Part shown: piece after piece, positions 6,053 through 63,294 of the stretch
How the letters are laid out: the number at the start of each line of letters is the position of its first letter
Numbering within the stretch: the stretch's first letter is position 1
Source of the DNA: Sphingomonas sp. SUN019
Lineage (GTDB): Bacteria; Pseudomonadota; Alphaproteobacteria; Sphingomonadales; Sphingomonadaceae
Assembly: GCF_024758705.1 (NCBI RefSeq)
Contig: NZ_CP096971.1
Coordinates: 1,674,001-1,738,000 of the forward strand
Reading direction: 5' to 3'
DNA length: 64,000 nucleotides
The notes under the pieces: model-generated
The model's database searches: none
What the model was told of the DNA's origin: nothing
What the model saw: only the letters and a program-made list of their open reading frames with translations
Made by a program: the position numbers and the translations under genes

Positions 6053-6158
6053 ACCTCCCCGGCGCAGGCCGGGGCCCAGGCTGGCCGAAATCTATACAGA
6101 GGGCAGGCCTAAAGCCGAGAAGCCGTGGCGACTGGACCCCGGCCTTCGCCGGGGAGGT
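6053..6158. repeat. Palindromic repeat, family A (GGCCGGGGCCCAG type), intergenic copy
   Basis: About 106 bases bounded by complementary ends ACCTCCCCGGCG and CGCCGGGGAGGT. Each end is itself a small hairpin (CCCCGGC / GCCGGGG). The same core is found at 19061-19133 and 52422-52487, and as a half copy at 63271-63294. It fills most of the gap between the hydrolase stop (6170) and the carboxylase operon start (5973), and could act as a transcription attenuator or mRNA stabiliser. Confidence 0.75.
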
Positions 6159-16934: not shown

Positions 16935-17740
16935 CCTTGGTGACCCTGCCCGGCGGCGAGGCGATCTGGTACAAGGTGACCGGAGATGGTCCGCCGTTGC
17001 TCCACATCCACGGCTCCGCGTTCGGGCATCGCAATTTCGGGCATTTGACGCCGCTGAGCGCGCAGGACTTTGCGGTGATCGACTTCGATCTGCCCGGCTA
17101 CGGCGACAGCCGCGGCGACTCGCGGCCCGGCGGCATGGCGGGAATCGCCGAACTGGTGTTCGAACTGATCGAGGCGCTGCCGTATGAGAAGGTCAGCATC
17201 CACGGCACGTCGTTTGGTGCGATGGTCGCGTTGACGCTGGCGGCGCATCATCCCGAGGTGGTCGACCGGCTGGTGCTGAGCTGCTTTCTCGCACGCTACG
17301 ACAATGCCGCGCGGATGATGCGCGCGACGTGGAAACGGTGCGCGCGCGAGCAGGGCATGGTCGCGGTCGCCGACCTCACGTCGGTCGCGGGGTTTGCGCG
17401 CGGCTTCTACGATCGGCCGGATGCGGAGGCGGTACTAGAATCGATCCGCGACGCGAACAGCAAAACCTTGCCCGAGGCGTTCATCGCGGGCACGGAGACG
17501 ATCGAGAAGACCGACCTCTCGCCGCTGCTGCCCAAGATCACGATGCCCGTCCTGCTGCTGGCGGGCGCGGAGGACAATATGACCGCGTTCGACACCGCGC
17601 CGTCGGGCTTCGGGATGCGCCGGATCGCCGAAGCGCTGCCGCAGGCCGAACTGCACGTCATTCCGGAAAGCGGGCATTATCTGGTGATCGAACAGCCCGA
17701 AATCGCGGCGGAAAAGATCGCGGCGTTCTTCAGGAAATAG
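16931..17740 (+). CDS. Alpha/beta hydrolase
   Basis: A 269-aa single-domain alpha/beta hydrolase. The oxyanion-hole strand LLHIHGSAF is near residue 25, the DLPGYGDSRG loop near 55, a canonical nucleophile elbow HGTSFGAM near residues 94-101 (Ser present), the acid in LLAGAEDN near 215, and the catalytic His in PESGHYLVIEQP near 250. All triad residues are visible, unlike the duplicated protein encoded at 12753-14438. It is the third gene of the EthD/PrpD operon and converges on the amidase, their 3' ends overlapping by 11 bases. Likely an esterase, C-C hydrolase or lactonase of the local pathway. Confidence 0.88.
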   Translation: MTLVTLPGGEAIWYKVTGDGPPLLHIHGSAFGHRNFGHLTPLSAQDFAVIDFDLPGYGDSRGDSRPGGMAGIAELVFELIEALPYEKVSIHGTSFGAMVALTLAAHHPEVVDRLVLSCFLARYDNAARMMRATWKRCAREQGMVAVADLTSVAGFARGFYDRPDAEAVLESIRDANSKTLPEAFIAGTETIEKTDLSPLLPKITMPVLLLAGAEDNMTAFDTAPSGFGMRRIAEALPQAELHVIPESGHYLVIEQPEIAAEKIAAFFRK

Positions 17741-19268
17741 GCGGGAACACCGGGCCGCCCATCGCGCGTTCCCATTCGGCGGCGACCGCGAGCAGCCGCC
17801 CCTCCTCGCCCATCCGGCAAGCGAACTGTACCGACAGCGGCAGGCCGTCCGCGGACAGCCCGGCCATCATCGCGAGCGCGGGGTGACCGCTGACGTTGAA
17901 CGGGGTGCGCGCCTGCAACATGTAGCTGCGCGCGATCTCGGCCGGGTCGTCGATCCGGCACGCGGGCTCCATGCTGCTGGCGGTCAGCAGGATGTCGACG
18001 GTCTCGAATGCGACATCGACCGCGGCGGTCAGCACGCCCTGCTGGCGATAGACGGCGATCAGCGTTTCGGCCGAGATGAACGCGCCGGGCAGTAGGGCCG
18101 TTCGGGTCAGTTTCGACAGGGCCTCTGGTTGCCCGCGAAGGCGGTCGGCGTGCGCGGCGAAGCCTTCGCTTTGCAGGATGATGCGATTGACCAAGGCGAA
18201 GTCGCCGAGCGGGGGCAGTTCGATGTCCTGCGCGCCGAGTTCGGCCGCGACCCGATCGAGCGCGGTGGAAACGTCCGGCGTCGCCGCCAGGTCGCGCGTA
18301 TGGAAGTGGCGAACGTAGCCGATCCGGCCCGGCGCGGTCGGGCGCACTTCGATGCCGAGCGCCGCCGCTGCGATCCCCATGTCCTCGACGCTGCGGGTCA
18401 GCAAGCCGATGTGATCGAGCGTCCAGGCGAGCGGCACGACGCCCTCCACGGACAGCATCCCCCGCCCCGGCTTCAGCCCGACGATTCCGCATGCGCTGGC
18501 CGGATTGCGCACCGATCCCGCGGTGTCGGTGCCGATCGCCAGCGGCGCCAGCCCCGCCGCCACCGCCGCACCTGCGCCGGACGAGGAACCGCCGGGGTGA
18601 TGATCCATATTCCACGGATTGCGCGCAGGCGGGAACGGCAGGTCGAACGCGGGGCCGCCGATCGCGAATTCATGCGTCGCGAGCTTGCCGAGGATGATCG
18701 CGCCGCCCGCGCGCAGCGTCGCCACGACTGCCGCGTCGGCTTGCATGGGGGCATCGCTGGTGGTGCGCGAATGGCACCGTGTTGGCAGACCCGCCACGTC
18801 GATCACGTCCTTGACGCCGACCGGTATGCCGTCGAGCGGGCCGAGCGGCCGATGCGCGCGCCACCGTTCGGCGGACGCCTGCGCCGCGGCGCGCGCGCCG
18901 TCGTGGTCGATCGCGACGAAGCTGTTCAACTGGCTGTCGATCGCATCGATTCGCGCGAGGAGTGCGTCGAGCAGGGTTGGTGGGTCGAGCGATCCGTCGG
19001 CGTATGCGCTTGCGATCTGAGCGATTGAGTATTGATGCAATGGGACGCCAGCCCCCCCACCACTACCCCGGCGAAGGCCGGGGCCCAGTTGCGGGCTGCT
19101 CGTAACTGGGTTCCGGCTTTCGCCGGGGTAGTGCCTAGACAATGCAACGATCCCGGCCGCCTGTTCTTCCGCCAGCCGCGCCGCGACCTCGACCTCCGGC
19201 GGGAAATGGGCCAGCGCCCGGTCCAACCCCTGCCTCAGCGCAGCACCAGCGATGTCGTCGTCGTTCAT
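17730..19268 (-). CDS. Amidase (amidase signature family) with repeat-encoded N-terminal insert
   Basis: A 512-aa amidase-signature enzyme. The Ser-cisSer-Lys triad is visible: Lys in GVKDVIDVAG, Ser in the GGSSSG loop and Ser in GTDTAGSVR. The catalytic domain begins around residue 78 (LHQYSIAQIAS). Before it lie about 45 residues of helix (ALRQGLDRALAHF) and then about 25 residues (46-70) encoded by a palindromic repeat at 19061-19133 that stays in frame. The ATG at 19268 has a good GAGGGGG ribosome-binding site; an upstream ATG at 19295 is less likely. It is divergent from the acyl-CoA dehydrogenase and probably hydrolyses an amide or ring-opened product of the pathway. Confidence 0.88.
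   Translation of the reverse strand: MNDDDIAGAALRQGLDRALAHFPPEVEVAARLAEEQAAGIVALSRHYPGESRNPVTSSPQLGPGLRRGSGGGAGVPLHQYSIAQIASAYADGSLDPPTLLDALLARIDAIDSQLNSFVAIDHDGARAAAQASAERWRAHRPLGPLDGIPVGVKDVIDVAGLPTRCHSRTTSDAPMQADAAVVATLRAGGAIILGKLATHEFAIGGPAFDLPFPPARNPWNMDHHPGGSSSGAGAAVAAGLAPLAIGTDTAGSVRNPASACGIVGLKPGRGMLSVEGVVPLAWTLDHIGLLTRSVEDMGIAAAALGIEVRPTAPGRIGYVRHFHTRDLAATPDVSTALDRVAAELGAQDIELPPLGDFALVNRIILQSEGFAAHADRLRGQPEALSKLTRTALLPGAFISAETLIAVYRQQGVLTAAVDVAFETVDILLTASSMEPACRIDDPAEIARSYMLQARTPFNVSGHPALAMMAGLSADGLPLSVQFACRMGEEGRLLAVAAEWERAMGGPVFPPIS
19061..19133. repeat. Palindromic repeat, family A, inside the amidase coding region
   Basis: A 73-base element with perfect 15-base complementary ends (CACTACCCCGGCGAA and its complement). 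Its core matches the elements at 6053-6158 and 52422-52487. It lies wholly inside the amidase gene and is read through without a stop, encoding residues of about 46-70 (HYPGESRNP...). The reading frame continues into the conserved catalytic domain. Confidence 0.85.
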
Positions 19269-20534: not shown

Positions 20535-20549
20535 TGGCTTCAGCCCGGT

Positions 20550-20634
20550 CATTCCCGCGAACGCGGGAACCCGTCTCCCGCGGTTCCGCTGAGCGAAACG
20601 GGCAGGTGATGGACCCCCGCTTTCGCGGGGGCGA
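20550..20634. repeat. Palindromic repeat, family B (CCCGCGAA/TTCGCGGG type)
   Basis: Two hairpin arms, CCCGCGAACGCGGG near 20554 and CCCCCGCTTTCGCGGGGG near 20614, in opposite orientation around a 45-base centre. It fills the gap between the acyl-CoA dehydrogenase stop and the GTG of the CoA transferase. A related element is at 44438-44547. Confidence 0.75.
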
Positions 20635-52137: not shown

Positions 52138-53091
52138 CTAATACGCGGCGCGGCGCAGGCGATCGTTGATCGCCGCGCCGACGCCATCCTCCGGCACCGG
52201 GGCGACCGCGATCCGCGGCTTCGGTCCGGCGTCGGCGCGGTGGAGCGCGTCGAACAGGTTCGCGGCGGCTTCGACAGGGTCGCCCGTGGGGGAAAGGGTC
52301 TCGTCGCCTGAGACGGGGCCGAAGCCGATCAGCCATTCGTCGCTATTGGGTGAAGTCGCGTCCAAGCGGAGCGGCTTGGTCGGCGAATAGTGGCTCTCAA
52401 GCTGCCCCGGCGACAGCACGCTCCCCGGCGAAGGCCGGGGCCCAGTGTTGGGCTGCGTCGTAACTAGGCCCCGGCCTTCGCCGGGGAAAAGCTGTTCGAG
52501 CGTGATCGGACCGGGCCTTAAAATCTCTTCGCCCATTACGATCGTCGATTCCAGTCCTGCCGCACACGCGCCGTCGTCGATAATCAGCGAAACCCGATCC
52601 CCCAGACTGCGCACCACATGCTCCGCCCGCGTCGGGCTGATCGCGTTGCTCGCATTGGCCGACGGTGCGGCAAGCGGCGCGCCCGTCGCCGTCAGCAGAT
52701 CGCGCATCGCCCGCCCAGCAGGTACGCGCACCGCGATCGTCCCCAACCCCGCCGTCACCAGCGATGCGATCCCCGCCTCCGCCCGCAACGGCAACACCAG
52801 CGTCAACGGCCCCGGCCAGAACCGGGCCGCCAGATCGCGCGCCGCGGCGTCGAACACCGCGATCAGTTCCGCCGCCGGCAGGCCCAGCACATGCACGATC
52901 AGCGGATTGAAGCTCGGACGACCCTTGGCGGCGTAAATCCGCGCCACCGCCGCCGAATCGCGGGCGTCCGCCGCCAGCCCGTACACCGTCTCGGTCGGCA
53001 CCGCGACGATCCCACCGCTCGCGATCAACGCCGCGGCCTCCGCGATCGCGGCCGCGCCGTAAGGGCGGACACCGGGGTGTTGAGCATGCAT
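52138..53091 (-). CDS. L-threonylcarbamoyladenylate synthase (Sua5/YciO/YrdC), with repeat-encoded linker
   Basis: A 317-aa Sua5-type enzyme that makes threonylcarbamoyl-AMP for the t6A37 modification of ANN-decoding tRNAs. The YrdC domain covers about residues 10-200 (GGIVAVPTETVYGLAADA, KGRPSFNPLIVHV, FWPGPLTLVLP, SANASNAISPT). The Sua5 C-terminal domain starts near SPGQLESHYSP (228). Between them, residues of about 202-224 (FPGEGRGLVTTQPNTGPRPS) are encoded by a palindromic repeat at 52422-52487 that is in frame. The linker in Sua5 is known to be flexible and functionally important, so the insert is at a tolerant place. Confidence 0.93.
   Translation of the reverse strand: MHAQHPGVRPYGAAAIAEAAALIASGGIVAVPTETVYGLAADARDSAAVARIYAAKGRPSFNPLIVHVLGLPAAELIAVFDAAARDLAARFWPGPLTLVLPLRAEAGIASLVTAGLGTIAVRVPAGRAMRDLLTATGAPLAAPSANASNAISPTRAEHVVRSLGDRVSLIIDDGACAAGLESTIVMGEEILRPGPITLEQLFPGEGRGLVTTQPNTGPRPSPGSVLSPGQLESHYSPTKPLRLDATSPNSDEWLIGFGPVSGDETLSPTGDPVEAAANLFDALHRADAGPKPRIAVAPVPEDGVGAAINDRLRRAAY
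52422..52487. repeat. Palindromic repeat, family A, inside the Sua5 coding region
   Basis: A 66-base element with complementary ends TCCCCGGCGAAGGCCGGGGC and its complement. It is the same family as 19061-19133 (in the amidase) and 6053-6158. On the coding strand both protein-internal copies begin in the same frame (PGE-x-R), but the right arm is read in another frame because the centres differ by one base. Confidence 0.88.
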
Positions 53092-63270: not shown

Positions 63271-63294
63271 CCTCCCCGGCGAAGGCCGGGGAGG
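63271..63294. terminator. Hairpin, half copy of repeat family A
   Basis: A perfect ten-pair stem CCTCCCCGGC / GCCGGGGAGG with loop GAAG between the convergent HI0933-type gene and murA. It equals one arm of repeat family A. No T-run follows, so termination is uncertain. Confidence 0.5.

Follow-up and report, generated by a model that had tools for sequence, protein, structure and literature searches.

Can a dispersed palindromic repeat be read as part of a protein and, in settling there, join two genes? The question is raised by an amidase gene of Sphingomonas sp. SUN019 that carries a 73-base element (19061–19133 of the window, i.e. the whole 64,000-base stretch analysed, positions 1,674,001–1,738,000 of the single-contig 3.81 Mb genome). 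The element, CACTACCCC...GGGGTAGTG, is a short twin made up of two REP-like units in opposite orientation. When compared with its own reverse complement, 62 of 73 bases were identical and the outermost 15 were perfect, in agreement with the perfectly complementary ends reported in a preliminary description of this DNA. Folded with RNA parameters, it forms a single hairpin of −72.2 kcal/mol on one strand and −55.5 kcal/mol on the other.

To place the element in a family, we searched the genome with the 24-base arm unit, allowing up to 3 mismatches. The search returned 75 matches (38 forward and 37 reverse), while the pattern read backwards gave none in either orientation. The matches pair into 40 places: 9 short twins with outer arms spaced by 63–64 bases, 27 long twins (95–100 bases, one 107) and 4 single arms, a count that omits weaker halves such as 63274–63291. 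The unit consists of a short stem with a 4-nt loop (CCCCGGC GAAG GCCGGGG), and its copies occur dispersed, as inverted pairs. Among the 73 arms compared, the tail is CCA-like (CCCAG in 41, TCCAG in 27) and the head is mostly CACCA or CACCT; the ten-base heads contained GTAG/CTAC in 7 and CGTC/GACG in 1, so the tag of the GTAG/CGTC super-family is not a feature of this one. Within the window, the preliminary description had listed copies near 6053 and 63271. The former is a long-form copy with 98 bases between the outer arms (6057–6154), the latter proved to be a single 18-base half element (63274–63291), and a full short palindrome at 52423–52486, in frame in the interdomain linker of Sua5, had been missed. 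A different family is represented by an inverted-repeat pair, seen by eye, at 20548–20634 (CATTCCCGCGAACGCGGGAA ... CCCCCGCTTTCGCGGGGG), directly 3' of an acyl-CoA dehydrogenase-like ORF. At the gathering threshold, a tRNA was the sole Rfam match in the window, and a guess at the common sphingomonad repeat, made from recall, gave 0 matches there. A RAYT as the mover of the repeats was rejected, as no match to the Y1_Tnp transposase (PF01797) was found in the genome at E ≤ 0.001, with 5 of 14 control genomes positive. Exact arm copies ranged from 0 (G063, G049) to 254 (G022, G341) per congener genome.

The amidase ORF lies on the reverse strand (17730–19268, ATG at 19268) and encodes 512 amino acids (P0001): an N-terminal module (residues 1–45, 19134–19268), the element, read as residues 46–70 with no in-frame stop, and the remaining linker with the catalytic domain (17730–19060). 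The latter matched Pfam Amidase PF01425 with E 2.4e-81 over residues 108–502 of a longer, 521-aa ORF started at TTG. AlphaFold2 predicted helices at residues 6–12, 16–21 and 23–46 of the module, and residues 49–72 had pLDDT < 50; the stop-free element thus lies in frame between a predicted helical N-terminus and the catalytic domain, as had been proposed. Tryptic peptides NPVTSSPQLGPGLR or HYPGESR would be expected if this region is translated. In a Foldseek search, the best matches of the fused model included transamidosome and GatCAB chains (4wj3, 3h0l) and 6c62, the matched chains being, we assume, GatA and AtzE.

DNA-level relatives of the amidase, besides the genome itself, were limited to G066, G082 and G279 in three overlapping search sets (3 of 199 relatives at E ≤ 1e-60 and 4 of 295 genus genomes at E ≤ 1e-80, own genome included; 1 of 397 family genomes at 1e-100, which was the own genome). 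One distant amidase locus, titled Myxococcales, was left unused. All three relatives have a small ORF followed by the amidase, the two genes overlapping with a stop/start of GTGA in G279 and ATGA in G082 and G066. The small ORF is 60 aa long in G279 and 50 aa in G082, its start codon in G066 being not settled. G279 is apparently Sphingomonas sp. Leaf357, where the small gene is annotated separately as ASG11_07620 and the amidase as ASG11_07615. Orthologues lacking exactly the ~25 residues had been anticipated; the element is indeed absent from G279, G082 and G066, but two overlapping genes are found there instead, so that the element apparently bridges genes and does not only lengthen one. In G279 and G082 the amidase frame is +2 relative to the small gene, hence a stop-free net insertion of 3k+1 bases is needed to fuse them. 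The distance between flanking landmarks is 110 bases in the window and 40 in G279, a net gain of 70, which corresponds to the 73-base element and a loss of 3 bases in the flanks. Since no more than these three DNA relatives turned up, none of them very close, neither the precise empty site nor a possible target duplication can be seen. The N-terminal module is homologous to the separate Leaf357 gene, with pN 0.343 and pS 0.586 over 43 codons; for the amidase part the same comparison gave pN 0.163 and pS 0.445.

From these results, we consider it probable that the palindrome bridges the small gene and the amidase gene into one ORF, as a REP-like copy surviving in frame in a flexible linker. REP-like twin inverted palindromes would occasionally settle in coding DNA and survive where the reading frame is kept and a flexible linker is hit. 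One such copy, presumably moving as a repeat, would have landed at the junction of the small gene and the amidase gene, which overlapped by four bases (GTGA/ATGA). Ribosomes starting at the small gene would then avoid its former stop and continue across the palindrome into the amidase, and in the fused protein, if it is expressed, the ~25 palindrome-encoded residues may form a disordered tether. In this order of events, the original start of the amidase (GTG in G279) would have decayed; the aligned codon in the window is apparently GTC. The small partner may be likened to AtzG or GatC, given the Foldseek matches of the fused model to AtzE- and GatA-like chains and the position of the small gene upstream in three relatives, but when three small ORFs and four fused proteins were searched, none matched Pfam AtzG or GatC.

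We then asked how often the family is found in genes. Thirty-nine of the 40 places were scored for open frames with coding-like flanks, the choice being made by eye on codon scores; the 40th (6057–6154) is crossed by three open frames, which were viewed with their coding potential unscored. Copies in other predicted coding sequences, which the preliminary description had suggested looking for, do exist: five twins have coding sequence on both sides in one frame, namely those in the amidase, Sua5, PutA, a BtuF-like and a BchD-like ORF, the last name being our own reading. The PutA element makes up residues 532–565, between Pro_dh (185–467) and Aldedh (571–998); in the BtuF-like ORF the element is enclosed by the region of a single Peripla_BP_2 match, and in the BchD-like ORF it immediately precedes AAA_lid_2, a VWA domain following later. 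The open frame of a CysG-like ORF with one NAD_binding_7 match contains a single arm, QLGPGRRRG (L127, G000:C1:2531019; left codon score −0.08), and an ORF for an ABC transporter ATPase gains ~29 C-terminal residues from a short twin (L006, G000:C1:2713392-2713460). Long open frames at L014, L132, L010, L007 and L004 showed no Pfam domain across the element, MatE starting 3' of it at L007. The family is a short, closely similar, multi-copy palindrome that is mostly extragenic, with 5 twins and 1 single arm of the 40 places coding on both sides, plus L006; the remaining places are without in-gene evidence, which alone does not make them extragenic. Short twins were in frame in genes in 4 of 9 cases, long ones in 1 of 27 (Fisher p 0.009); 63 is a multiple of three.

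The same linkers were compared across species, PutA and BtuF-like in the best 30 of 54 and the best 30 of 35 matching genomes, respectively, the PutA set including other genera. PutA linkers reached an arm score of at least 13 in 10 of 30 loci, with at least four repeat families; one of the ten, L141, looks more like a simple repeat. At least three further families were seen in L138, L139, L143, L147, L145 and L148 (CCCCCTCCCGCAAGCGGGAGGGG; CCCCTCCCCTTCAGGGGAGGGG; CCGTTCGTGTCGAGCGAAGTCGAGA), L146 being similar to those but below the score cut, and the linker is short and empty in L151, L152, L153, L156, L162 and L163. The score of 13 was reached in 3 of 30 BtuF-like loci and in 1 of 14 BchD-like loci, a fifteenth locus missing one side. 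In Sua5, PutA and the BtuF-like and BchD-like ORFs, the copies are thus in frame and stop-free, and orthologues can lack them.

The richest series came from Sua5 (L-threonylcarbamoyladenylate synthase, 317 aa, 52138–53091, reverse strand), in which the palindrome encodes residues about 202–224 (FPGEGRG...GPRPSPG) between PF01300 and PF03481. The AlphaFold2 model has pLDDT < 50 at residues 206–232, and in both this model and that of the amidase the longest low-confidence stretch is the one encoded by the element. The Sua5 element directly precedes PGQ (228–230) and HY (234–235); the HY histidine of this loop is important for Sua5 activity (PMC10321239). A Sua5 match was obtained in 291 of 295 genus genomes at E ≤ 1e-30, and 90 loci were examined (own, the 29 next best and 60 hand-picked from the other listed matches), among which carriers are probably over-represented because the list holds the better matches only and the query itself carries the element. 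The linker had a twin-arm score of at least 14 in 37 of 90 loci and a codon-shuffle p of at most 0.01 in 38; the reading frame was kept in all 90. An automated splitter found 44 twins in Sua5, 40 of them with a core of 3k+1 bases, the remaining four being three copies of other families and one mis-split. For 54 dispersed twins (34 from this genome, including five in-gene copies, plus 20 of unchecked gene context from four others) the core length left remainders of 0, 1 and 2 in 25, 12 and 17 cases. The 40 are not independent events, since Sua5 copies share ancestry. Independent insertion of every Sua5 copy was mostly rejected, because the majority encode PGEGRG...GPRPSPG with the two frames unchanged; the cores of this family in Sua5 are 61, 64, 73 or 97 bases, each 3k+1, and, judged by eye, the 28-base group has look-alike interiors. 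L069, L108 and L114, which are copies from other families, do appear independent. The splitter mis-split L029, L054 and L064, another pass giving 64 for L029 and 73 for L054. The L091 linker is short compared with those of its relatives L115 and L118, which have 102 and 111 more bases; the alignment of these three revealed no identifiable target duplication. A clean, close empty site was not seen for the family.

The proposed bridging has to be weighed against two other readings of the amidase locus. One is that the genes were fused before this copy came and that palindromes only accumulate in a pre-existing, tolerant linker. A tree built on 60 amidase domains shows fused forms mixed with amidase-only ones, and several of its forks are open. 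The proteins nearest to P0001, P0002 and P0003 (support 92/84), are both already fused, so that fusion may predate this copy. The P0002 linker holds a long form of the same family in a different left frame (PRRRPGP...LDPGLRRG); its 35 residues align over their full length to long-form copies, with 60% identity to L119 of the own genome and 63% to L187 of the relatives, among the best 45 of 217 linker matches listed. The linkers of P0003 and P0004 resemble it by eye, P0004 having no match among those best 45 of 217. Peptides of P0007 and P0016 matched a second dispersed family (L057, L058, L153) weakly, at 38–50% identity and some with stops, again among the best 45 of 217; the palindrome content of P0005 and P0006 is doubtful, and P0018, P0019, P0020 and P0024 are fused with no palindrome evident by eye. 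Linkers of Sua5, PutA and the BtuF-like protein also gather palindromes without any gene junction. On the other hand, P0008 (G279) and P0011, in the same unresolved 11-row group as P0001, begin at the amidase domain, as do deeper branches; the DNA of P0008 shows two genes, and since P0008 is the only amidase-only database protein with its upstream DNA examined, the others may owe their form to another choice of start. Moreover, a bridge requires 3k+1, and the element supplies exactly that. We therefore regard an earlier fusion as a real possibility, though one we would not bet on. As a separate observation, repeats translating like RTCSGIH...RWIPEQVRDD flank the sua5 and putA genes of L057, L058 and L153, with three in a row in L057.

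The other reading, by which the repeat is an untranslated leader and the amidase starts downstream, appears quite improbable. It would be served by a TTG (19040, context CCA TTG CAT) near the ancestral start position, two codons after the one aligned with it, which could still start the amidase alone (~436 aa), and by the caution of Di Nocera et al., in the accessible part of PMC3733652, that many N-terminal REPs may fall outside the true gene. Yet the module upstream has a homologue that is a gene by itself, and its pN is below pS, over 43 codons only, and with no stop between module and amidase, ribosomes on the module would run through. The preliminary description had held that a leader would be indicated if no orthologue had upstream homology; homologues of the module are in fact fused to the amidase in P0002–P0007 and separate in Leaf357. 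Copies between or within conserved domains, as in Sua5, PutA and the BtuF-like protein, cannot be leaders.

The Sua5 series also allowed the fate of in-gene copies to be followed. In 28 genomes, self-chosen from the 90, we counted CTCCGGCGAAGGCCGGAG and CCCC[G/T]GCGAAGGC[C/A]GGGG, the counts including the Sua5 arms themselves and the GAAAGC loop of G339 and G230 falling outside the pattern. The Sua5 arms matched the commoner repeat variant of their genome in 20 of 22 genomes. Where Sua5 has CTCC arms, CTCC outnumbered CCCC in all five genomes (74:1, 23:1, 16:13, 34:28 and 14:10); where the arms are CCCC-type, CCCC was commoner in 15 of 17, the contrary cases being G203 (19:5) and G207 (23:8). 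The association of arm type and genome variant had a Fisher p of 0.0008, uncorrected for kinship. Both variants are absent from G063 and G049, whose Sua5 lacks a palindrome, G067 and G214 have copies in the genome but none in Sua5, and G212 and G053 carry another family there. In the Sua5 tree (86 of 90 rows, 4 having been dropped by the parser), sister rows differ in arm type: L052 and L080 (support 100/73), L036 and L079 (100/91). The interiors of species pairs with different arms gave a mean z of 3.14 (24 pairs), four pairs reaching 4.8–7.2, compared with 2.69 among dispersed copies (190 pairs) and 2.18 between in-gene and dispersed copies (80 pairs, maximum 4.7). As these scores are barely above the controls, a vertically inherited interior is suggestive only.

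Within a six-species clade (L063, L071, L073, L087, L092, L106), the Sua5 element had pS 0.105 and pN 0.115, and its flanks 0.415 and 0.070 (15 pairs, ~29 synonymous element sites); four-fold sites differ by 0.036 inside the element and by 0.245 upstream. The upstream comparison is restricted to this clade, because gaps were not handled and L042 was mis-split in the 28-base and 37-base groups, which makes it unreliable there. The pattern is compatible with homogenisation, with a younger element and with hairpin selection alike. It could accordingly be that in-gene hairpins are selected as RNA or DNA signals, in pausing or mRNA stability, with the peptide as a by-product: in this clade the DNA is kept and the peptide is not, and arm variants are matched on both sides of the stem (CTCCGG...CCGGAG; CCCCTGC...GCAGGGG). 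But the arm score is below 14 in 53 of 90 Sua5 loci, some with relics and some with nothing, the arms of L087 and L030 have decayed, and arms mostly track the repeat of their own genome, which homogenisation explains equally; we thus hold hairpin selection to be unlikely. Concerted evolution may be put forward tentatively, with more doubt than confidence: Sua5 arms would be overwritten to the current variant of the genome while interior and site descend vertically, so that a segment of a tRNA-modification enzyme is rewritten, and the same elements would bridge overlapping genes whenever the net insertion is 3k+1.

Phenomena of this kind are already known, from Rickettsia palindromic elements and from in-gene REPs, sphingomonads included. 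S. alaskensis and E. litoralis, which we take to be a Sphingopyxis and an Erythrobacter, presumably belong in or near the sphingomonads. Both are among the many species with in-gene REPs in Di Nocera et al. 2013 (tRNA synthetases, tRNA pseudouridine synthase B; PMC3733652), so that the earlier view that no equivalent had been described for sphingomonads does not hold. As far as its accessible text goes, that paper also proposes flexible linkers or loops for in-gene REPs and reports two Xanthomonas recB genes with REPs at about the same site; neither arm tracking nor a bridge between overlapping genes is described there, and Sua5 is unmentioned in its main text. Our family resembles REPs and BIMEs in its short stem with a 4-nt loop, CCA-like tail, inverted pairs, dispersal and occasional presence in genes, but differs in its head, mostly CACCA or CACCT in place of the GTAG or CGTC of those REPs. 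Rickettsia elements, in the accessible part of PMC10969869, likewise form several families in frame in unrelated genes, also in other Rickettsia genomes, but are described as ~150 bp long, as against cores of 61–107 bp here; it is by description only that they are set apart. The Coxiella QMITE elements, small non-autonomous MITEs yielding in-frame fusions and protein segments (PMC5896051, in part), are comparable, although target duplication and a parent transposase were not found for the sphingomonad family. Small mobile repeats within and between genes have been reviewed (PMC2229807). At the level of titles and abstracts, with subscription journals mostly outside this scope, in-gene palindromes in sphingomonads and palindromes fusing overlapping genes were unreported. 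Gene bridging, one linker occupied by several repeat families, and arm tracking were not found described.

Gene bridging, and the recurrence of repeats in certain protein linkers, are less expected than in-gene palindromes themselves. How a mobile DNA family contributes protein can here be followed in a comparable series: two genes that a repeat seems to have joined, together with linkers of Sua5, PutA, the BtuF-like protein and the amidase repeatedly occupied in one genus by several families, in empty, full and decayed states. The origin of linkers and fusions, and a possible function of the segments, become testable in this way, and so does the homogenisation of dispersed repeats when one copy is under reading-frame constraint.
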